From NCBI GenBank assembly GCA_004762155.1, contig SIHP01000010.1:1-64000 (forward strand): DNA of 64,000 nucleotides, written 5' to 3'. Source of the DNA: Flavobacteriaceae bacterium (GTDB taxonomy: Bacteria; Bacteroidota; Bacteroidia; Flavobacteriales; Flavobacteriaceae). The translations under genes and the position numbers were made by a program. The notes under the pieces are model-generated. The model saw only the letters and a program-made list of their open reading frames with translations, ran no database searches and was not told the DNA's origin. Below are positions 45,063 to 61,759 of this stretch, piece by piece; the first letter of the stretch is position 1, and the number at the start of each line of letters is the position of its first letter.

Positions 45063-45069
45063 AAATTAA

Positions 45070-45454
45070 CAGATTACTTCATTACACTGCGTTGCATTCG
45101 TAATGACGTTTAAGAAAAGAGAACAAATATTTAATAACAGTATCGGACACTGAGCGGAGTCGAAGTGTTTTGAGCAATAGAAAAAAGTAAAAATAATTCT
45201 CTAATCCAGAAACAGATTACTTCATTACACTGCGTTGCATTCGTAATGACATTTAAGAAAAGAGAACAAATATTTAATAACAATATAGGACACTGAGCGG
45301 AGTCGAAGTGTTTTGAGCAATGGAAAAAAGTAAAATAATTCTCTAATCCAGAAACAGATTACTTCATTACACTGCGTTGCATTCGTAATGACGTTTAAGA
45401 AAAGAGAACAAATATTTAATAACAGTATCGGACACTGAGCGGAGTCGAAGTGTT
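45070..45454. repeat. Tandem 142-143-bp intergenic repeat, 2.7 copies
   Basis: Copies begin with cagattacttcattacactg at 45070, 45213 and 45355; the third stops after the hairpin-type motif ending near 45454. They differ at a few bases only. Each contains cactgagcggagtcgaagtg. The unit is not a multiple of 3 and has no coding character. Confidence 0.88.
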
Positions 45455-45562
45455 AAAACAACGAACATGTTCTCGATACGTTTTTACGTCGATTTCGACT
45501 CCGCTCAATCACCGTATAAACAATAGCACTATAAAAAGTAATTGGATAAAAAAGCCATAAAC

Positions 45563-48795: not shown

Positions 48796-49064
48796 TAGTA
48801 TCAGGTATGTTTTAGCCTTATGTCCTACTTAAGTCGAATTATAAAATCCACCGCAAGAAACGCAAAAAATTAAAAGCTGTTTGAGTCTTTCGACTACGCT
48901 CAAGATAAACTAATAGCGAGTTCTTTTAATTTAGTTTCGAGGATGAGATTTTATAAATGAAGAATTAATAAGACTAGATTTTTTTGGTTCTTTTTTCAGC
49001 AATGGAAAAAAGAAAATAAATATTCTATTTTAGAATAATACACTAATGATATCACAAAAGAAAT
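48796..49064. other. Gap between hutI and hutG
   Basis: 269 bp without a gene. One inverted copy of the dispersed motif (ctttcgactacgctcaag) lies at 48886-48904. No terminator is obvious. Confidence 0.5.
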
Positions 49065-49877: not shown

Positions 49878-49914
49878 ATTATCGCTTCGGACACTGAGCG
49901 AAGTCGAAGTGTTT
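49867..49914. repeat. 48-bp direct repeat overlapping the hutG stop codon, copy 1
   Basis: Identical over 48 bp to 50313-50360. It includes the final hutG codons and the motif cactgagcgaagtcgaagtg. The two copies bracket a 398-bp segment of other repeats. Confidence 0.85.
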
Positions 49915-50177
49915 TATTTAGTTACATACAAAACCTAAAATAAGTTATAATGCATTTGTCTATTAAATATCTCGTGCATATCAGTTCGAGAAGTGTGATT
50001 TTTTTTCAAGCGTTGTTGATGACATAAAATTGAAAGCGTCATCACGAATGTAACACAGAGAAATGGCCTGTACTGAGCGAAGTCGAAGTAAAGTAATCTG
50101 CTATTCGATTAACAGATTGCTTCTTTCGTACCTCAATCGCAATGACGAATAAAAGTTGTCAATGGTAGTAATTTTAA

Positions 50178-50234
50178 GAAGAGATAACGGAATAAAATTG
50201 TACTTCGACTTCGCTCAGTAACCTTATCGAGAAC
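50178..50234. repeat. 57-bp dispersed repeat, copy 2
   Basis: Second copy of the element at 45006-45062, same orientation, two mismatches. Confidence 0.85.
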
Positions 50235-50312: not shown

Positions 50313-50360
50313 AATTAAGTTAAATTATCGCTTCGGACACTGAGCGAAGTCGAAGTGTTT
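50313..50360. repeat. 48-bp direct repeat, copy 2
   Basis: Exact copy of 49867-49914, here wholly intergenic; it still includes the sequence that forms the end of hutG in copy 1. Confidence 0.85.
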
Positions 50361-51857: not shown

Positions 51858-52763
51858 TTATGTATTTTGAACAACATTAATAATTTTAGAAAAATCTTTA
51901 TTTTTCAAATCTTCTTTATGCATACACAAATAAAGGTGAGCTCCGTTTCTACTAAACCCATATCCGTCTTCTCCTTTCATTTCAAAAGAAATAAGATTTA
52001 CATAATTAGTACTTTCATCATTTTCATATGCTTCTTCTTCTCCAAAATATTGTTCGTTCCATACTTCCGCAATGGTATGTTGAACAGAAAAAGGAACTCC
52101 TAATAGTAAATTGTGACTAAAGAACTTATAACTATCATCTACAGGAGACGCTACTCTACCAATACTTCTAGACATTTTCATTTGCATTCTTGCTGTATAA
52201 GACTCATCAAACATTGCATTAGCAACATCGTCAATTCCGTCAGCATCTTCGTCTGATAAAAGACCTCTTAATTTATAATTAAAAGGATAACGCGGAAGTT
52301 GATAACTACTACTATAACTAATAATTCGTGGAACTAATTGTTGTTCCGCTGGAATACTTGTTGGTATTTCAGTAAATACTAAATCATTAGAATCTTCAAA
52401 AAAATAGGTTTTAAAAGCATCTTTTACATCATATTCCCACATTACATCACCAGTAACTGAAGCAAAACATAACAAAATTCCCTTATCTGGAAATACATTA
52501 TCTACATCAAAAGGTTTTATTTGCTCGAAATTTAATTGGAAGAAAAAAGCAAGTGGCGAATTTTCTGTTAAACTTTGTACTGGCCAAACAAAATCACTAG
52601 GTGCCGCTGGTTTGCCTCCAAATCTTGAGTCTAATAAATTAGGATTGGATTTTTGTTCGTCTACAGAAAAAATAATATTTGGTATGATGGTTTTTATAAC
52701 TTTTTCTACATTATCCCAGTTATAATTATTAATTTCCTTTATAATCTTGTCTTTTGCTTTCAT
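51858..52763 (-). CDS. DUF1963 (YwqG-like) protein
   Basis: A 301-residue soluble protein matching the DUF1963 family: SRFGGKPAAPSDFVWPV near residue 50, then PLAFFFQLNFEQIKPFDV, FPDKGILLCFA, and the C-terminal LYLCMHKEDL. Family members are widespread, with no established biochemical role. No partner gene is near; it is flanked by the hutF terminator and by the 60-bp repeat array, whose left edge is about 110 bp upstream of its start. Its promoter must lie between 52764 and the array. Confidence 0.8.
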   Translation of the reverse strand: MKAKDKIIKEINNYNWDNVEKVIKTIIPNIIFSVDEQKSNPNLLDSRFGGKPAAPSDFVWPVQSLTENSPLAFFFQLNFEQIKPFDVDNVFPDKGILLCFASVTGDVMWEYDVKDAFKTYFFEDSNDLVFTEIPTSIPAEQQLVPRIISYSSSYQLPRYPFNYKLRGLLSDEDADGIDDVANAMFDESYTARMQMKMSRSIGRVASPVDDSYKFFSHNLLLGVPFSVQHTIAEVWNEQYFGEEEAYENDESTNYVNLISFEMKGEDGYGFSRNGAHLYLCMHKEDLKNKDFSKIINVVQNT

Positions 52764-52880
52764 ATGATACTACATTTATATATGGCTAAATAAAAAGAAA
52801 ATATTGTTTTATACTACCCAGTATCCAGTGATATTTATTTCTTGTAGCAAACATTATTTTATATTCAATTATAAAAAAAG

Positions 52881-54827
52881 AAGCTCGGTAACTGAGCAGA
52901 GTCGAAGCTATCATTTCGACTCCGCTCAATCACCAAAAAGAACCACTATTACTGAGCGAAGTCGAAGCTATCATTTCGACTCCGCTCAATCACCAAAAAG
53001 AACCACGGTTACTAAGCGAAGTTGAAACTATGATTTCGACTCCGCTCAATCACCAAAAAGAACCACGGTTACTCAGCGAAGTCGAAGCTATCATTTCGAC
53101 TCCGCTCAATCACCAAAAAGAACCACGGTTACTAAGCGAAGTCGAAGCTATCATTTCGACTCCGCTCAATCACCAAAAAGAACCACGGTTACTCAGCGAA
53201 ATCGAAGCTATGATTTCGACTCCGCTCAATCACCAAAAAGAACCACGGTTACTGTGCGAAGTCGAAGCTATCATTTCGACTCCGCTCAATCACCAAAAAG
53301 AACCACGGTTACTGAGCGAAGTCGAAGCTATCATTTCGACTCCGCTCAATCACCAAAAAGAATCACGGTTACTGAGCGAAGTCGAAGCTATCATTTCGAC
53401 TCCGCTCAATCACCAAAAAGAACCACGGTTACTGTGCGAAGTTGAAGCTATCATTTCGACTCCGCTCAATCACCAAAAAGAACCACGGTTACTGTGCGAA
53501 GTTGAAGCTATCATTTCGACTCCGCTCAATCACCAAAAAGAACCACGGTTACTCAGCGAAGTTGAAGCTATCATTTCGACTCCGCTCAATCACCAAAAAG
53601 AACCACGGTTACTCAGCGAAGTCAAAGCTATCATTTCGACTCCGCTCAATCACCAAAAAGAACCACGGTTACTGAGCGAAGTCGAAGCTATCATTTCGAC
53701 TCCACTCAATCACCAAAAAGAACCACGGTTACTCAGCGAAGTCGAAGCTATCATTTCGACTCCGCTCAATCACCAAAAAGAACCACGGTTACTGTGCAGA
53801 ATCGAAGCTATCATTTCGACTCCGCTCAATCACCAAAAAGAACCACGGTTACTGTGCGAAGTTGAAGCTATCATTTCGACTTCGCTCAATCACCAAAAAG
53901 AACCACGGTTACTGTGCGAAGTTGAAACTATGATTTCGACTCCGCTCAATCACCAAAAAGAAGCTCGGTAACTGTGCAGAATCGAAGCTATGATTTCGAC
54001 TCCGCTCAATCACCAAAAAGAATCACGGTTACTGAGCGAAGTCGAAGCTATCATTTCGACTCCGCTCAATCACCAAAAAGAATCACGGTTACTGTGCGAA
54101 GTTGAAGCTATGATTTCGACTCCGCTCAATCACCAAAAAGAACCACGGTTACTGTGCGAAGTTGAAGCTATCATTTCGACTCCGCTCAATCATCAAAAAG
54201 AACCACGGTTACTGAGCAGAGTCGAAGCTATCATTTCGACTCCGCTCAATCACCAAAAAGAACCACGGTTACTAAGCGAAGTCGAAGCTATCATTTCGAC
54301 TCCGCTCAATCACCAAAAAGAACCACGGTTACTAAGCGAAGTCGAAGCTATCATTTCGACTCCGCTCAATCACCAAAAAGAACCACGGTTACTCAGCGAA
54401 GTCGAAGCTATCATTTCGACTCCGCTCAATCACCAAAAAGAACCACGGTTACTGAGCGAAGTCGAAGCTATCATTTCGACTCCGCTCAATCACCAAAAAG
54501 AACCACGGTTACTGTGCGAAGTCGAAGCTATCATTTCGACTCCGCTCAATCACCAAAAAGAACCACGGTTACTCAGCGAAGTCGAAGCTATCATTTCGAC
54601 TCCGCTCAATCACCAAAAAGAACCACGGTTACTGTGCGAAGTCGAAGCTATCATTTCGACTCCGCTCAATCACCAAAAAGAACCACGGTTACTGTGCGAA
54701 GTTGAAGCTATGATTTCGACTCCGCTCAATCACCAAAAAGAACCACGGTTACTGAGCAGAGTCGAAGCTATCATTTCGACTCCGCTCAATCACCAAAAAG
54801 AACCACGGTTACTGTGCGAAGTCGAAG
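52881..54827. repeat. Tandem array of a 60-bp hairpin-containing repeat, about 32.5 copies
   Basis: The unit is exactly 60 bp from 52881 to 54827 with no insertion or deletion. Each unit holds an inverted pair: left arm gagcgaagtcgaa and right arm ttcgactccgctc, separated by gctatcat, pairing at 12 of 13 positions. A linker of about 25 bp (atcaccaaaaagaaccacgg) joins the hairpins. Differences are single-base and cluster in the left arm, above all at the two bases after act, which occur as ga, gt, ca or aa. The right arm and linker are almost invariant. The variant aagctcggta replaces the linker at the left edge and again at 53961. The arms are the same motif found singly in the hut gaps. Confidence 0.95.
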
Positions 54828-54859: not shown

Positions 54860-54921
54860 CACTCGAACTGACAATTAAGAATTATAAAAACAATTTTTAT
54901 AAACTATTGTCAATTCGAGTG
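54860..54921. terminator. Long hairpin at the right end of the array
   Basis: cactcgaactgacaat (54860-54875) pairs with attgtcaattcgagtg (54906-54921) at 15 of 16 positions, and an inner ttataaaaa/tttttataa pair extends the stem. It lies 33 bp after the stop of the minus-strand gene at 54954, so it may end that transcript. Related single arms occur at about 44986 and 50288. Confidence 0.6.
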
Positions 54922-54953
54922 AATATATTTCCTTAAAATATTCTATTTCTTTA

Positions 54954-55655
54954 TTAAATGGCTAACTTTTTAACTTGACTATATTCGTTAGAATCAATAC
55001 CAAATTGTGCTTTAATAAAGTTTTTTATACTTTGTGTTTGTTGTCTAAGGGTATCGAACAATGTTTGACGCTCATTAATAATTGGTTTGTACACACTTAA
55101 ACAAACATCAACAGCAGTGGTGCTTTCTTGTGCTGTAGTTGCTAATGCATTTAACGCTTCTAAACTAATAGACTCATTTGGTGGCGCATATCCTTCTCCT
55201 AAACTACTAAGTATATCAATAATATTTTTAAAATTAGCTAACCTACTCGCATACGTACGCTCTATTTGACTAATACTATCCGTTTCGCTTTCTGTTGCTG
55301 TTTTGGTAACACTACCTCTTATTTTATTTACCAAACTTGTTATTTGTGTTAGCTCTGTGCTGTCTTTACCTTTTAATGCCTCTATAAAAGTTCTAATTGG
55401 CGATAAAAGTTTATCTAAAGAATTGTTGTTTTCAGAAAAAATTATTTTCCGTTCTTTAGTCTTTGTAGTATAATCGGATTTTACAATATTGTACTGCTGT
55501 TGCAGTGTATCAATTGCAGTAATCGTTTCGGTTAGTGTAGCTAAAGATGCTGTTGGTACAGGTGCTACATAATTAGTAAAACTTCCTACAATTATTTGTA
55601 GGTTTTTTGCTTTGCCAAGTCTGCTGGCAAAGGATCCATGTGATTTTGAACTCAT
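54954..55655 (-). CDS. Hypothetical protein, helical, 233 residues
   Basis: Unrecognised protein. It begins MSSKSHGSFASRLGKAKNLQ and has regions of Thr, Ser and Gln in long predicted helices (ITAIDTLQQQYNIVKSDYTT, LSPIRTFIEALKG), with no signal peptide or membrane segment. Ends in FGIDSNEYSQVKKLAI. The composition suggests a helical bundle or coiled coil. It stands alone between the 60-bp array hairpin and the 21-bp repeat. I have a weak impression that related proteins occur in other Bacteroidota next to repeats, but cannot support a function. The start is the first ATG, followed by a good coding pattern. Confidence 0.65.
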   Translation of the reverse strand: MSSKSHGSFASRLGKAKNLQIIVGSFTNYVAPVPTASLATLTETITAIDTLQQQYNIVKSDYTTKTKERKIIFSENNNSLDKLLSPIRTFIEALKGKDSTELTQITSLVNKIRGSVTKTATESETDSISQIERTYASRLANFKNIIDILSSLGEGYAPPNESISLEALNALATTAQESTTAVDVCLSVYKPIINERQTLFDTLRQQTQSIKNFIKAQFGIDSNEYSQVKKLAI

Positions 55656-56341
55656 AACAATAATTTTTTTCTATTTCAAGTTAAACTTAACACTTTTAGT
55701 TTATTATCCCAAAATTTTAACTCTTTTTTAATGTTTTTAAGCCAAATATATTAAGGTGTATTGCAGTATTGTTAAAACTTTTATTATTACGTAGCTACTA
55801 CTTTATAGTATAGCCAATGAGGAAGCCATTGCAAACGTGGAGGAAGCCATTGTAAGCTTTGAGGAAAGGATTGTAACCAACGAGGAAGCGATTGCAAGTA
55901 TTGAGGAATGGATTGTAACGAATGGGGAAGCGATTGCAAGCGTTGAGGAATGGATTGCAACCAATGGGGAAGCGATTGCAAGGGTTGAGGAGTGGATTGC
56001 AACCAATGAGGAAGCGATTGTACACATTAATGTGTGCTTTGTGTGCTTTTATAGTTATGTGCTGTAGATAAAAAATAAAAAAACGTGCTTTTACGGATAA
56101 CCGTACTCATAAACCTTCGGTTAACTTTATCTTGCCTGTTTTATTAGATAAATGTACTTTAGTTTTCTAAAAAAAGAACCCCGAAAAAAGAAAAACATCA
56201 TGGTTTTATTTAAGTATAACCAAATATGGATATTATATTCCTAAGGATAAAAAACATTAAAAAAAAATGCTAACGATATAGTACTATTTTTAAGTTTCTA
56301 AAAAAAGCTAGCACTCAATACTAAAAAAGCAATACACCTAC
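55656..56341. other. 686-bp region with a 21-bp tandem repeat, upstream of hsdM
   Basis: Contains the 21-bp array (55819-56028), a palindrome (acacattaatgtgt, 56022-56035) at its right end and about 300 bp of AT-rich sequence before hsdM, which should hold the restriction operon promoter. No gene is certain here. Confidence 0.6.
55819..56028. repeat. Ten tandem copies of a 21-bp repeat
   Basis: Ten units of exactly 21 bp follow the pattern gaggaagcgattgcaannnn t/g. Odd and even units differ in a regular way, giving a 42-bp higher-order period (gaagcgattgcaag against gaatggattgcaac). Read on the plus strand the units encode seven-residue repeats such as EEAIASV and EEWIATN, a heptad-like pattern. 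The plus frame has no ATG; only an internal GTG at 55837 could start it, and all three minus frames are open too. Translation is therefore doubtful. Confidence 0.85.
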
Positions 56342-57799
56342 ATGAGTTTCGAACAAACTTTTAAAAATATAGACGACCTTCTTTACAAAGATTCAGGGGC
56401 CGATAGTGAATTAGATTATATAGGACAAACCTCTTGGGTAATGTTCTTACGTTATTTAGATGAATTAGAGCAAGACAAAGCAGATGAAGCCGCACTAGAA
56501 GGCAAAGACTATACATTTATTTTAAAAGAAGCGTATCGTTGGGGGATTTGGGCAATGCCTAAAGATGCCGAAGGCAAACTAGACCATCATGTAGCTATGA
56601 CGGGTACAGATTTGGTACAGTTTGTAGATGGCAACTTATTCCCATACTTGGCAGAGTTTAAAAATACAGCTGAAAATCCGCAGACGATTGAATATAAAAT
56701 TGGAGAAATATTTTCTGAACTAAAAAACAAAATACAATCGGGATATAACCTACGTGAAATTTTAGAGTATGCCGACGACTTACCATTTAGAACCTCTAAA
56801 GACAAACACGAACTAAGCCACCTGTACGAAACCAAAATTAAAAACATGGGGAATGCAGGGCGTAATGGCGGACAATATTACACCCCTCGCCCATTAATTA
56901 GAGCAATGATTAATGTGTTAAACCCACAAATTGGCGAAACGGTGTACGATGGTGCTGCTGGTTCTTGTGGTTTCTTATGCGAAGCCTATGATTACATGTT
57001 TGAACGCATGGAAAAAAATACCGATAACCTAAAAACCTTACAAGAAGCTACTTTTTACGGTAAAGAAAAAAAGAACCTTGCTTATGTAATTGGTATTATG
57101 AATATGATATTGCACGGTATAGAAGCCCCAAATATTATACATACCAATACGTTGGGCGAAAACATACGCGACATACAAGAAAAAGACCGTTATAATATCA
57201 TCTTAGCAAACCCACCTTTTGGCGGAAAAGAACGTAAAGAGGTACAACAGAATTTTGATATTAAAACAGGAGAAACTGCTTTCTTGTTTATGCAACATTT
57301 TATTAAAAGTTTAAAAGCTGGCGGACGTGCAGCCATTGTTATAAAAAACACGGTGTTAAGTAATACCGACAATGCCTCGGTAAGTTTGCGTAAGTTATTA
57401 TTAGAAAGCTGTAACCTGCATACTATTTTAGATATGCCAGGTGGTACGTTTTTAGGCGCAGGTGTAAAAACCGTTACCTTATTTTTTACCAAAGGAGAAC
57501 CTACCAAAAACATTTGGTATTACCAGTTGAACCCTGGGCGAAATATGGGAAAAACAAACCCGTTAAATGATAAAGATTTAGCAGAGTTTGTTACCCAACA
57601 AGAAAACAAACCAGAAACCGAAAATTCTTGGAATGTTAAAACCGCTACTATTGATGCTGAAACGTTTGACTTAAGTGTTAAAAACCCAAATACGCCCGAA
57701 GAAGCACCTTTGCGTGAACCTGCAATTATTTTAGCGGAAATGAAAGCTTTGGATGCAGAAACTAACTCGATTCTTGAATCTATAAAAGAATTGATATGA
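56342..57799 (+). CDS. hsdM: Type I restriction-modification system methyltransferase subunit
   Basis: A 485-residue N6-adenine methylase. The N-terminal HsdM helical domain (about 5-150) is followed by the N6_Mtase domain. SAM motif I is VYDGAAGSCGF (202-211) and the catalytic motif IV NPPF is at 290-293. It forms the M2S core with HsdS. Its end overlaps hsdS in an ATGA, the first of three such junctions in this operon. By eye its base composition is richer in G and C than its neighbours, as expected for a mobile defence operon. Confidence 0.95.
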   Translation: MSFEQTFKNIDDLLYKDSGADSELDYIGQTSWVMFLRYLDELEQDKADEAALEGKDYTFILKEAYRWGIWAMPKDAEGKLDHHVAMTGTDLVQFVDGNLFPYLAEFKNTAENPQTIEYKIGEIFSELKNKIQSGYNLREILEYADDLPFRTSKDKHELSHLYETKIKNMGNAGRNGGQYYTPRPLIRAMINVLNPQIGETVYDGAAGSCGFLCEAYDYMFERMEKNTDNLKTLQEATFYGKEKKNLAYVIGIMNMILHGIEAPNIIHTNTLGENIRDIQEKDRYNIILANPPFGGKERKEVQQNFDIKTGETAFLFMQHFIKSLKAGGRAAIVIKNTVLSNTDNASVSLRKLLLESCNLHTILDMPGGTFLGAGVKTVTLFFTKGEPTKNIWYYQLNPGRNMGKTNPLNDKDLAEFVTQQENKPETENSWNVKTATIDAETFDLSVKNPNTPEEAPLREPAIILAEMKALDAETNSILESIKELI

Positions 57800-58875
57800 G
57801 AGAGGGTTGGGAAATAAAAGAATGGTCAGAAGTACTTGATATTAAAAGCGGTAAAAATCAAAAAGAAGTTCTAAATCCAAATGGAAAATACCCAATTCTA
57901 GGAAGCGCGGGTAAAGTTATGGGCTATGCTGATGATTACATCTGTGAGGCTGGAACAACTATTATTGGAAGAAAAGGCACAATCAACAATCCTTTATTTA
58001 TTAAAGAAAAATTTTGGAATGTTGATACAGCTTTTGGACTACACACATCTGAACAATTAGATAAAAACTATTTCCATTATTTTTGCTTAAGCTTTGATTT
58101 CACTGAAATGGATAAAGGTTCTGGTCGACCTAGTTTAGTGAAAAAAGATTTGCTTAAAATATCAATCCCAATCCCACCACTAGCAGAACAACAACAAATC
58201 GTTGCAATACTAGACAAAGCTTTTACAGCAATAGATACCGCTAAAGCCAATATTAAAAAAAACATTGAAAATGCTAAGGAGTTATATCAGTCTAAACTCA
58301 ACCAAATTTTTAGCCAAACAGGTGATGGTTGGGAGGAGAAGACTTTGGGGGAAGTTTTTAAGTTAAAAAGTGGAGATGGATTAACAGCAAAGAAAATGAT
58401 TGAAGGCCCTTATCCAGTTTATGGTGGTAATGGAATAGCTGGGTATCATAATGTCAATAATTTTGAACCTCCTCAAGTTATTATTGGTCGTGTGGGTGCT
58501 TTATGTGGTAATGTTAGACATATTAAAGATAAATTTTGGTTAACTGATAATGCTTTTAGAATTTCAGTTGGATTAGATAATTTTGATAATGACTTTGTTA
58601 CTTATTTACTGAATTATAAAAATTTAAGAAATTTTGCTAGACAGGCTGCGCAACCAGTTGTTTCAAATTCGTCTTTAAAAAATGTTCCGTTATCTTTTCC
58701 TTCTTCAGTTGATGAACAAGTAAAAATTAGAAAAAAACTTAGAAACATAGAAAGTGAATTAAATAAATTAAACGCTTCTTATAAATCAAAACTTACAAAC
58801 CTAGAAGAACTCAAAAAATCAATCCTACAAAAAGCCTTTGCAGGTGAATTAACCAATAAAGAAGTACAAATATGA
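57796..58875 (+). CDS. hsdS: Type I restriction-modification system specificity subunit
   Basis: A 359-residue protein with two target-recognition domains: residues 1-135 (WEIKEWSEVLDIKSGKNQ, ending ISIPIPPLAEQQQIVAILD) and about 178-320 (WEEKTLGEVFKLKSGDG, ending VPLSFPSSVDEQVKIRKKL). Each is followed by a coiled coil. It sets the bipartite DNA target of the complex. The short length and similar starts of the two halves agree with internal duplication. The TRDs are more AT-rich than hsdM and hsdR by eye, consistent with domain exchange. The target cannot be predicted here. ATGA overlaps at both ends. Confidence 0.93.
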   Translation: MREGWEIKEWSEVLDIKSGKNQKEVLNPNGKYPILGSAGKVMGYADDYICEAGTTIIGRKGTINNPLFIKEKFWNVDTAFGLHTSEQLDKNYFHYFCLSFDFTEMDKGSGRPSLVKKDLLKISIPIPPLAEQQQIVAILDKAFTAIDTAKANIKKNIENAKELYQSKLNQIFSQTGDGWEEKTLGEVFKLKSGDGLTAKKMIEGPYPVYGGNGIAGYHNVNNFEPPQVIIGRVGALCGNVRHIKDKFWLTDNAFRISVGLDNFDNDFVTYLLNYKNLRNFARQAAQPVVSNSSLKNVPLSFPSSVDEQVKIRKKLRNIESELNKLNASYKSKLTNLEELKKSILQKAFAGELTNKEVQI

Positions 58876-59381
58876 CTTTTTTTCATGTAACTAATAAAGA
58901 ATATCAAATTGATGATATTGTTGATGCTACAACTTTTGAATCAACAGAGTACCATCAACGAACTATTCAGGGAGGTATGGGAGATATTGATAATATTCTT
59001 GATACGTATCGACCACAAGGCTTTCCTAATCGAAAAAACTGCATCTATGCTTTCGATAATGTCGGTATGTGTATGCACTTTGTGGGTAACCGGTATAATG
59101 GTAATGAAATATACTATGAAGTTGAATTGATTAATCCTGTTAAATGTCCAATTAAATTGGTTAAGATTCTTAATGAGAATAATTATACTGTTGATAATAA
59201 AATAATAATAAACGAATACTGGCAACCTAACTCAAGAAATAATTGGAAATACTTTGAGTATTTGGCTTCATCTATGAAGATTATTGCTATTGTAGAAGGT
59301 AATGATAAAATGGGGAAAATGATTGCAGGAATGTTTAATGATTTAGATGAAGAATTAGGAACGAAACTATTTATAGAATGA
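58872..59381 (+). CDS. Unknown protein embedded between hsdS and hsdR
   Basis: A 169-residue soluble protein that starts within the hsdS stop (ATGA) and whose stop overlaps the hsdR start (ATGA). It is thus translated as part of the restriction operon. The opening FFHVTNKEYQIDDIVDA and the middle RKNCIYAFDNVGMCMHFVG resemble DUF2441-like proteins and, more distantly, the ADP-ribosyltransferase fold (an His-x-Thr start, a Tyr/Phe core strand). This comparison is a weak impression; no catalytic Glu can be assigned. It could be an accessory toxin, a regulator of restriction or a passenger gene. Confidence 0.75.
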   Translation: MTFFHVTNKEYQIDDIVDATTFESTEYHQRTIQGGMGDIDNILDTYRPQGFPNRKNCIYAFDNVGMCMHFVGNRYNGNEIYYEVELINPVKCPIKLVKILNENNYTVDNKIIINEYWQPNSRNNWKYFEYLASSMKIIAIVEGNDKMGKMIAGMFNDLDEELGTKLFIE

Positions 59382-61759
59382 ACGAAGCACAAACCAGACT
59401 AAACTATATAGACCCCGCTTTAAAAAAAGCAGGTTGGGGCGAAGTTTCAGGCAGTAGAATACGTGTAGAGTTTCCTATTACCGATGGGCGTATTATTGGT
59501 AAAAACAAACGTGCTAGTAAATTATCGGCAGATTATGTGTTAGAATATAAAAACCGTCGTTTGGCAGTAATAGAAGCCAAAGCAAAAAACAAATATTATA
59601 CCGATGGTTTGGGGCAAGCAAAAGATTATGCCGAGCGTTTAAATATTCGGTACACCTATGCCACCAATGGTGTAAAAATATATGGTGTAGATATGCAAGA
59701 AGGTGCAGAAGGCGATGTTAACCACTACCCTACACCAGACGAGTTGTGGGAAATGACCTACCCAACACCTATAGAACCTTATAAAGTTGAAATAGCCGAT
59801 TGGAAAACACGCTTAGACAGCATACCGTTTCATCGTTTTAAAGGAAAATATTTACCGCGCTATTACCAACACAATGCGTCGTTAAATGCTTTAGACGCAA
59901 TTGCTACAGGTAAAGACCGTATTTTATTAACCATGGCAACAGGTACAGGTAAAACCGCTACGGCTTTTCATATTTGTTGGAAATTGTTTCATGCCAAATG
60001 GAACTTAAAACGAGATGCTTCGCGTGCGCCAAGAATCTTATTTTTAGCCGATAGAAATTTATTAGCCGACCAAGCTTTTAACTCTTTTGGAGATTTTGAA
60101 GAAGATGCTTTGGTGCGTATTACACCATCAGATATTAAAAAGAAAGGAAAAGTACCTACCAACGGAAATGTATTTTTTACCATTTTTCAATCGTTTCTAT
60201 CTGGTGATGAAGAAACACCGTATTTTGGTCAGTATCCAAACGATTTTTTCGATTTTATAATTATAGATGAATGTCACCGAGGTGGTGCAAAAGACGAAAG
60301 CACTTGGCGAGCGATATTAGATTATTTTAGTCCCGCAGTACAAATGGGACTTACCGCTACACCAAAACGAGATATTAACGCAGATACCTATGATTATTTT
60401 GGAAAACCCGTTTACACCTATTCTTTAAAAGACGGAATTAACGATGGTTTTTTAACGCCATTTAAAGTAAAAGAAATAAGCACTACCATAGACAATTACA
60501 CTTTTACAGAAGATGATGAAGTTATTGGTGGCGATGTAGATACTACTAGAGAATATACCGAGAAAGACTTTAATAAAATTATAGAGATAAAAGCTCGTGA
60601 AGAATATCGTGTAAAGCTCTTTATGAATATGATTAACCAAAGTCAGAAAACGTTGGTCTTTTGTGCGACACAAATACATGCGGCGGCGGTTAGAGATTTA
60701 ATTAATCAATATAAAACCAGTAAAAGCACCAAATATTGCGAACGCGTTACAGCAGATGATGGTAAAATTGGTGAACAACATTTACGCGATTTTCAAGACA
60801 ACGAAAAAAGCATTCCTACCATTTTAACAACTTCACAAAAACTAAGTACTGGTGTTGATGCTCCAGAAATTAGAAACATTGTATTAATGCGTCCTGTAAA
60901 TTCTATGATTGAGTTTAAACAAATTGTAGGACGTGGTACCCGTTTGTTTGATGGTAAAGATTATTTTACGGTGTATGATTTTGTAGAAGCGCATAATCAT
61001 TTTAAAGATCCTGAATGGGATGGAGAACCTTTAGACCCTGCGGAACCAAAACCTAAAGGCGAAGGAAAAGCTTGTTCAGATTGTAATTCTAAACCTTGTA
61101 TTTGCATAAAAGAACCTGAAGAGCCTTGTTATGTTTGTGGTAACGATCCGTGTGTCTGTGAAGAAGAGGAAAGAAAAATGATTACCATTGTTTTAGCAGA
61201 CGGTAAAAAAAGAGAATTGGATTCTATGGTCAAAACTACTTTTTGGGATCCGAACGGAACACCTATTCCCTTAGATGCCTTCGTAAAAAAATTATATGGC
61301 GATATGCCTTCTTTATTTACTAGTGAAGAAGAATTACGAAAAATATGGAGCTTGCCAAGTACTCGTAAAAAATTATTACAAGAGTTAAATGATTTAGGCT
61401 ATAGCGCCGATCAGTTAGAAGATTTAAGAAAATTAGTACACGGAGAAAACAGCGACTTGTTTGATGTGCTAAATTATATAGGGTATAGTAGCGATTTAAT
61501 ACCAAGATTAGCGAGAGCTGAAAAGGCAAAAATCCAATTATCCGACTATAATAAAGAGCAACAACAGTTTTTAAATTTTGTACTAAAACAGTACATTAAA
61601 GAAGGGGTTGATGAACTAGATGATGCTAAACTGGGTGATTTGTTGATTTTAAACTACGGCGGTATTGCTGATGCTAAAAACAAATTAGGAGATATACCAA
61701 CTATACGAAATACATTTATTGGTTTTCAAGAGTATTTGTATCAGAAAAATATTGGGTAA
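59378..61759 (+). CDS. hsdR: Type I restriction endonuclease motor subunit
   Basis: A 793-residue subunit. The N-terminal nuclease has D52 and E66-x-K68 (ADYVLEYKNRRLAVIEAKAK). The SF2 motor follows with Walker A TMATGTGKTATAFH, DECH box IIIDECHRGG, motif III GLTATPKRD and motif VI QIVGRGTRLFDGKDYF. It then has an unusual cysteine cluster: C566, C569, C574, C576 and C584, C587, C592, C594, a repeated CxxCx4CxC that could bind zinc. The C-terminus (EcoEI-type) ends with IRNTFIGFQEYLYQKNIG. Cuts unmodified DNA after translocation. Confidence 0.94.
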   Translation: MNEAQTRLNYIDPALKKAGWGEVSGSRIRVEFPITDGRIIGKNKRASKLSADYVLEYKNRRLAVIEAKAKNKYYTDGLGQAKDYAERLNIRYTYATNGVKIYGVDMQEGAEGDVNHYPTPDELWEMTYPTPIEPYKVEIADWKTRLDSIPFHRFKGKYLPRYYQHNASLNALDAIATGKDRILLTMATGTGKTATAFHICWKLFHAKWNLKRDASRAPRILFLADRNLLADQAFNSFGDFEEDALVRITPSDIKKKGKVPTNGNVFFTIFQSFLSGDEETPYFGQYPNDFFDFIIIDECHRGGAKDESTWRAILDYFSPAVQMGLTATPKRDINADTYDYFGKPVYTYSLKDGINDGFLTPFKVKEISTTIDNYTFTEDDEVIGGDVDTTREYTEKDFNKIIEIKAREEYRVKLFMNMINQSQKTLVFCATQIHAAAVRDLINQYKTSKSTKYCERVTADDGKIGEQHLRDFQDNEKSIPTILTTSQKLSTGVDAPEIRNIVLMRPVNSMIEFKQIVGRGTRLFDGKDYFTVYDFVEAHNHFKDPEWDGEPLDPAEPKPKGEGKACSDCNSKPCICIKEPEEPCYVCGNDPCVCEEEERKMITIVLADGKKRELDSMVKTTFWDPNGTPIPLDAFVKKLYGDMPSLFTSEEELRKIWSLPSTRKKLLQELNDLGYSADQLEDLRKLVHGENSDLFDVLNYIGYSSDLIPRLARAEKAKIQLSDYNKEQQQFLNFVLKQYIKEGVDELDDAKLGDLLILNYGGIADAKNKLGDIPTIRNTFIGFQEYLYQKNIG

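Follow-up and report, generated by a model that had tools for sequence, protein, structure and literature searches.

The window analysed here is the whole stretch of 64,000 nucleotides from contig SIHP01000010.1 of a Flavobacteriaceae bacterium, and within it there is a long tandem array of 60-bp units occupying the gap between two genes on the minus strand. To the left lies a gene encoding a DUF1963 protein (51858..52763, minus strand), and to the right a gene encoding a protein of 233 aa (54954..55655, minus strand) that was matched by neither Pfam nor NCBIfam at E up to 0.001 and has a second copy on contig C11. The right-hand gene falls within a block of ~1.25 kb (54948-56192), a 95% identical copy of which is present on contig C11 (locus L154, 1492-2731), and the duplicated block ends 121 bp to the right of the array. 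No clear orthologue of the left-hand gene was found in the genus, with matches in 2 of 58 genomes including its own, and the other of these weak. The loop core of the hairpin described below was found in none of 11 flavobacterial loci carrying the left-hand gene, and a looser hairpin scan of the same loci returned one chance-like match in each of four. The array is therefore not part of the usual surroundings of the DUF1963 gene.

An inverted repeat (CACTCGAACTGACA ... TGTCAATTCGAGTG, 54860..54921) lies 32 bp to the right of the array. By eye it resembles a repeat found beside another clade of GIY-YIG genes, and it is also terminator-like on the minus strand. An unrelated 42-bp tandem repeat of 4.3 copies is located nearby (55819-56020), and the genes from 56342 to 61759 resemble, by eye, those of a type I restriction-modification locus. 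Between 45000 and 50411 lie genes for histidine degradation, of which urocanase was identified by Pfam and the rest by eye, with hairpins of the same family as those of the array in three gaps around them. A 142-bp tandem repeat of 2.7 copies (45068..45454) is accompanied by family hairpins on the plus strand at 45142-45170, 45285-45313 and 45427-45455. Interspersed copies were matched by our covariance model R1 at 45488..45516 (minus strand, E 1.0e-6), 49886..49914 (plus, E 1.6e-7), 50198..50226 (minus, E 9.4e-6) and 50332..50360 (plus, E 1.6e-7), with weak copies at 48883..48911 (minus, E 0.0037) and 50065..50093 (plus, E 0.0018).

Structure and variation of the array

Tandem Repeats Finder places the array at 52875..54827, with a period of 60 bp, 32.5 copies, 94% matches, 0% indels and a score of 3433. 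There are 32 full units and 33 bp of a 33rd. An earlier note on this DNA had described 32 indel-free units of 60 bp starting at 52881; the array is confirmed, and its true start lies 6 bp outside that position. The period itself is read directly, and it is unlikely to be an artefact of assembly. Since the longest exact repeat within the array is 126 bp, the copy number depends on the assembly (47 contigs, method not stated).

Each unit is a dimer of REP type, made of two oppositely oriented copies of a hairpin that is scattered through the source genome and others of the order. In unit 1 the left loop (GAGCAGAGTCGA) is at 52894..52905 and the right loop (TCGACTCCGCTC) at 52916..52927, both read on the plus strand. 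The left loop, at unit positions 20-31, belongs to an arm that is decayed and variable in every unit. The place equivalent to the right loop matches the family model on the minus strand in 32 of 32 units, so that at E up to 0.01 model R1 finds all of the right arms and no left arm.

The 32 full units fall into 21 kinds. A dinucleotide with four states, picked out in the earlier note, is indeed found at unit positions 20-21 as GT in 12 units, GA in nine, CA in seven and AA in four. The note had seen the substitutions concentrated in the left arm. Variants common to two or more units lie only at unit positions 9-38, where they affect six of the 13 positions of the left arm and none of the 13 of the right arm. 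Of the six singleton changes (positions 13, 14, 30, 48, 50 and 59), two are in the right arm, at 48 and 50. The clustering of shared variants to the left of position 39 might have arisen from unlike founders, from conversion limited to that part of the unit, or from constraint on the right arm.

Adjacent units are slightly more similar than in shuffled order, with 96 differences where 107.9 would be expected (P 0.046), and across the array no pair of adjacent unit kinds occurs twice. Site pairs 3-8 bp apart (21/24, 24/27 and 21/29) present all four combinations of their variants, and the pairs 24/29 and 27/29 present three. This pattern is better explained by fine-scale exchange or conversion, or by recurrent mutation, than by copying in blocks.

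The 13-bp inverted pair that had been noted in each unit is present but never perfect, with 12 Watson-Crick pairs in eight units, 11 in 12 and 10 in 12. Within the individual arms, the stem of the left arm makes two to four of five pairs, and that of the right arm four of five in 26 units and five of five in six. Calculated folding energies of the units range from -4.0 to -11.6 kcal/mol, compared with -16.9 kcal/mol for a hypothetical unit built from family arms. The 16 distinct substitutions in the array are no gentler on the fold than random changes, at a mean of 0.93 kcal/mol compared with 1.22 (P = 0.28). The suggestion that selection maintains the hairpin of the array thus finds no support, as the substitutions disrupt the fold like random changes, every unit folds more weakly than one with family arms, and singletons occur in both arms. 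Recent homogenisation or conversion, which the note had offered as the alternative, fits better.

A family of tailed hairpins

The arms of the array were sought throughout the genome, as the earlier note had proposed, and copies of the family were found outside the array. The family hairpin has a constant 12-nt loop TCGACTYCGCTC closed by a covarying stem of ~5 bp and followed by an unpaired tail, giving an element of ~24 bp. Most tails are ACC-like or GACA, and a smaller number are AAAC. The tags are mostly of GGT type, which includes the array, or of TGTC type, and a 5' tetranucleotide of the GTAG/GGAG type is lacking.

The core TCGACTCCGCTCA occurs exactly 57 times in the source genome, 30 times in the array and 27 times outside it. 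Model R1 matched at least 95 places in that genome, comprising 32 in the array, 20 at a second locus on contig C43 and 43 elsewhere, a count that is a lower bound as 150 of 372 candidates were scored. These matches bear out the view of the array repeat as a REP-type hairpin interspersed elsewhere in the genome. Across the order R1 has matches in 23 of 79 genomes and 11 of 42 genera. Within the genus, 19 of the 58 genomes (the source included) contain the core, and 1 of 58 contains a reversed control pattern.

Stem pairing was examined in 116 distinct copies outside the two arrays, collected by their 12-nt loop; most of these loci had been fetched with a 13-base pattern of the loop plus one stem base, and 14 loci fetched by similarity to the array gave 23 of the copies. 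Going outward from the loop, Watson-Crick pairs are made in 114, 113, 106, 102 and 70 of the 116 copies, where shuffled arms give 102.8, 57.2, 36.5, 32.1 and 45.6, and from the sixth position outward there is no clear excess. The 93 pattern-fetched copies taken by themselves give 92, 91, 86, 80 and 49 pairs against 82.7, 45.7, 29.0, 28.4 and 35.7. When 112 copies are aligned, pairing is seen in 90.9% of stem cells (59.2% after shuffling) and a change on both sides in 216 cells (86.6 after shuffling). Covariation scores 0.853, compared with 0.256 for shuffled stems and at most 0.220 for stems slid out of register. The number of stem pairs with any double change, five against 4.2 in shuffles, is not beyond the shuffled range (137/500). 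The stem varies widely around the constant loop provided that pairing is kept.

The copies are mainly extragenic, with 20 of 112 inside open reading frames of at least 100 aa compared with 1838 of 2240 positions drawn at random. Where an intergenic copy is flanked by two genes, these are co-directional in 65 cases, convergent in 19 and divergent in three. Where a copy is inside a gene, the TCGACT strand is the coding strand in 14 of 20 cases, and in three genes around one locus (L055, L068, L076) this strand translates as PFDSAQG. The gene concerned is a rhodanese by Pfam. Its element is intact in genomes G027, G078 and G033, G028 and G011 have an altered form, and G022 has none. The proteins of G022 and G027 share 91% identity, and the difference is an in-frame one of 24 bp, which may be a gain or a loss.

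Pairs in inverted orientation are found in the array unit and at the loci on contigs C43 and C45, and many further copies stand alone. At L028, from a different species of the genus, the dimer takes another form, with its tails inward, in three spaced copies. A literature search with 14-base loop cores found no occurrence. One of four 12- or 13-base loop forms appeared in literature on mosquito markers and on archaeosine synthase, and the peptide FDSAQ and its kin also returned matches; we judged all of these to be unrelated.

A GIY-YIG gene between hairpin arrays

The tandem locus on contig C43 has one sub-array with 6.8 copies of an 85-bp unit and another with 4.8 copies of a 91-bp unit. Their units contain two arms of the same kind as the array, GGTAGCT-GAGCGGAGTCGA-AGCTATG and, inverted, GATT-TCGACTCCGCTC-AATC, with a longer linker. 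Between the two C43 arrays, at 2377-2682 of L035 on the minus strand, there is a gene for a GIY-YIG family protein of 101 aa (PF01541, E 6e-19), the nearest solved chains to which are the UPF0213 proteins 1zg2 (E 8e-16) and 1ywl. Directly after the second REP-dimer array there is a 41-bp tandem repeat of 4.3 copies (3175-3352 of L035). A GIY-YIG gene was also sought in the 64-kb window, and none was found (best tblastn E 0.81).

We surveyed GIY-YIG genes in the 58 genomes of the genus, scanning their flanks with one hairpin definition that allowed several loop forms. Homologues were divided into 33 close ones (tblastn E 2e-18 or better) and 34 distant ones (E 5e-16 or weaker). A hairpin lies within 100 bp of 23 of the 33 close homologues and of 1 of the 34 distant ones, and hairpins are present on both sides of 13 close homologues and no distant one. 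By comparison, rhodanese genes have a hairpin within 160 bp in 4 of 30 cases and on both sides in none of 30, and random segments of the same loci contain one in 158 of 3361. All 13 of the two-sided close loci include a pair of hairpins in opposite sense, as would be expected where hairpins are many. Four loci (L219, L225, L240, L241) are nearly identical in layout, with a hairpin at -16 upstream in the opposite sense and one at +24 to +28 downstream in the same sense. The remaining 10 of the 33 close homologues have no family loop within 100 bp and have another repeat nearby, CACTCGAAGTGACA / TGTCAGTTCGAGTG and variants, a class defined after viewing the sequences (nine loci by inspection, L221 by pattern).

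The presence of the gene also tracks the abundance of the core, a close homologue being found in six of the seven genomes with at least five exact cores as against 14 of the 51 others (p 0.005). Eight of the 19 genomes with any exact core lack a close homologue. One genome (G012, 67% complete) has six exact cores and seven copies with WCC tails, and no GIY-YIG homologue was found there.

In G074 and G060 (L215 and L216) the GIY-YIG genes are situated within series of alternating hairpins, like that on C43. Hairpins with loop TCGCTATCGCTC and a TGACA tail occur 110-282 bp from distant GIY-YIG genes in three species (L271, L273, L275), and these are perhaps one more pair of enzyme and hairpin.

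Hairpin class and tail follow the nuclease tree

We assigned each gene a hairpin class from the commonest loop within 150 bp, there being ties in L218 and L246, among others. On the tree of the 33 close proteins the five classes require five changes, where the minimum is four and shuffling gives a mean of 19.6 with 0 of 200 shuffles as low; these shuffles demonstrate clustering, not independent events, and the broken, fast-evolving L220 and L244 are placed uncertainly.

The tails behave similarly. The hairpins next to L210-L212 and L214-L216 have ACC-like tails, apart from one of the nine at L215, and at L220 and L244 one of the two hairpins has such a tail. The tail at L213 is unclassed. GACA or GACG tails are found beside the other genes with TCGAC loops (one of two in L218). 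We then compared the scattered copies in six genomes with a single enzyme class, leaving out 13 of 19 that have several enzyme classes or none and setting aside 'other' and AAAC tails (12 and eight). In G000, G080, G028 and G078 there are 18 WCC tails and no GACA, compared with one WCC and 17 GACA in G020 and G026, where copies within a genome are not independent. Without the source genome the ratios are 3:0 against 1:17 (p 0.003). Genome G035, which has a broken ACC-type gene and an intact GACA-type gene, contains 19 WCC copies and one GACA copy, and in G011 the tail of the hairpin beside the enzyme is unclassed and its two scattered copies are GACA.

Outside the phylum, five plasmid records encode proteins related to the nuclease (E 1e-12 or better). 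On a plasmid of Sphingomonas parapaucimobilis the relative has hairpins with loop TCGACTTCGCTC at both ends, with an inverted pair upstream and one copy overlapping the 3' end of the nuclease gene as annotated. The relative on a Methylobacterium bullatum plasmid is bracketed on both sides by another inverted repeat. The three Bacillota plasmid records contain no family hairpin, one of them having a plain hairpin on one side. A short-pattern search of viral contigs found no relative of the nuclease.

Origin of the array

As its unit is an inverted pair of interspersed tailed hairpins, the array is a satellite of REP type (REPIN/BIME-like), and it is best seen as working like a REPIN cluster. 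We infer recognition of the hairpin by the nuclease from the neighbourhood of the genes and from co-variation; the array, the hairpin family and its structure, the association with the gene and the co-variation with the tree are themselves read from the sequences. On this basis the GIY-YIG gene on C43 most likely encodes an enzyme that recognises the hairpin, probably as single-stranded DNA. The array would probably then be a decaying satellite of putative recognition sites for this nuclease, grown from one dimer. A single interspersed REP-like dimer would have been amplified head to tail in the intergenic gap. The resident C43 endonuclease would recognise the hairpin, probably in single-stranded form, and its cutting or binding there during replication or recombination may stimulate slippage and unequal exchange, which in turn would make the tandem dimers and homogenise them. 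Because its left arm has decayed, the present array would have no selected role of its own.

The array might instead be a neutral repeat, in which chance duplication of a dimer was followed by slippage and unequal exchange without any part being played by an enzyme of the family. This is a possibility of some substance, if on balance doubtful. It agrees with the weak stems, the decayed left arm and the lack of constraint on the hairpin, with the four-combination site pairs that exchange or recurrent mutation would give, and with the further tandem repeats near the array. However, it does not account for arrays of the same dimer type flanking the GIY-YIG gene in the source genome, or for the serial hairpins that flank that gene in G074 and G060, and simple duplication of blocks would give recurrent pairs of adjacent unit kinds where none recurs.

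A selected lattice is improbable. Here the right arms would be candidate protein-binding sites in all 32 units and the left arms would be free to drift, as the matching of R1 to right arms alone and the restriction of shared variants to the left arm would suggest. Yet singleton changes affect the right arm too, 26 of 32 right stems contain a mismatch, and the first 300 bp of the array are matched in only 4 of 58 other genomes, all as short pieces.

More doubtful still is an ordinary REPIN or BIME cluster, made by a RAYT (a Y1 tyrosine transposase) and lengthened in tandem through recombination. The available text of PMC3116915 reports that REPINs form tandem clusters in which the REP dimers are repeated together with their flanking sequence, and Y1_Tnp matches are found in 31 of the 58 genomes of the genus, with four in the source genome. 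There is a weak correlation between having a Y1 match and the number of core copies (Spearman 0.33, p 0.013), a match being present in 14 of the 19 genomes with the core and 17 of the 39 without it (p 0.049). In contrast, the 100 bp on either side of the open reading frame are free of family hairpins in all 33 Y1 loci fetched, and in 31 of these no such hairpin lies within 160 bp of the Y1 match. At least 88 hairpins are present in G020, a single-contig genome in which Y1 was not matched at E up to 0.001, and L004, the 193-aa Y1 gene of the source genome, is flanked on one side by direct repeats of another kind. A RAYT partner, as the earlier note had envisaged, is thus not borne out. Since the association with a Y1 gene that defines the RAYT-REP family was looked for at these loci and not found, the array is not a member of that family.

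At L104 a RAYT-like Y1 gene with the motif YIHQNP has its own direct repeats on both sides, and a hairpin of the 11-nt-loop class, TCGACAAGCTC, lies ~102 bp from the Y1 open reading frame. A hairpin pair at L111, first seen near a Y1 gene, actually brackets a GIY-YIG gene.

A processed RNA or a repeat-protein gene is very unlikely indeed, for while one plus-strand frame is open over 313 and 293 aa, as follows from 60 being a multiple of three, a second plus frame of the consensus unit is likewise open, a stop in the variant unit at 53955 cuts the frame, the Pfam matches of the first open reading frame are mutually unrelated (HIGH_NTase1_ass just reaching its cut-off, 26.7 against 26.7 bits, with no stretch of that match significant alone), and nothing in the window matches Rfam at gathering score.

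Relation to known systems

We return to the satellite of nuclease sites as the preferred reading. Ssn proteins are reportedly site-specific nucleases of single-stranded DNA within the GIY-YIG superfamily that go with the NTS repeats of Neisseria, in a study from 2025. In that system a small GIY-YIG nuclease is reportedly paired with a recognition repeat scattered in many genomic copies. Here too there is a small stand-alone GIY-YIG nuclease and there are many genomic copies of the sequence that flanks its gene. The pairing of gene and repeat is therefore probably of a known kind, and the best reading is that the nuclease encoded on C43 would be an enzyme of the Ssn kind. Unlike Ssn and NTS, the present system has a constant 12-nt loop, covarying stems, two main types of tail that follow the nuclease tree, and tandem satellites.

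The CGTC-tagged REPs are, in the available text of Di Nocera 2013 (PMC3733652), short extragenic palindromes with an unpaired end tag, CGTC or often TGTC, frequently paired in opposite orientation and reported without a dedicated transposase; their stems are of 8-9 bp and their loops of 4-5 nt. The present hairpins are likewise short, mainly extragenic, unpaired at one end and at some loci in inverted pairs, but have a stem of ~5 bp and a constant loop of 12 nt. Where those REPs carry CGTC, TGTC or CCTC, TGTC is found here in one part of the copies and the GGT type in another, which includes the array. REPIN clusters are similar in placing inverted REP pairs head to tail with their flanks, and in the available text of Bertels and Rainey 2011 (PMC3116915) the largest comprises four REPINs and one REP, whereas here there are 32 dimers and the partner gene is a GIY-YIG and not a RAYT. 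TnpA-REP subclass 2.6 of the Bacteroidetes, with its atypical flanking structures, shares the phylum and has hairpins beside a nuclease gene; as described in the available part of PMC6006769, it belongs to the HUH/Y1 superfamily, and the Y1 genes examined here do not have the hairpins beside them.

The portion of the 2006 GIY-YIG survey available to us (PMC1564403) names no such repeats, and a literature search for GIY-YIG proteins with Ssn or dRS3 repeats found no such paper. The rules of loop, stem and tail, the co-variation with the tree and the tandem satellites were not met in the literature searched.

Taken by itself the array is a large but understandable REP satellite, and the link between nuclease and hairpin matters more. 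We suggest tentatively, as a plausible idea and not as the expected outcome, that the GIY-YIG nucleases of this clade could be the long-missing mobilisers of a large class of tagged REP-like hairpins that has no known transposase. Enzyme and hairpin, the latter in its loop class and tail, would evolve as a pair, the stems would be free to change provided that they pair, and the action of the nuclease at dimers would build satellites. This would offer a concrete candidate enzyme for the tagged REPs reported without a dedicated transposase, and it suggests a code relating tail and loop to protein clade that could be measured with oligonucleotides.
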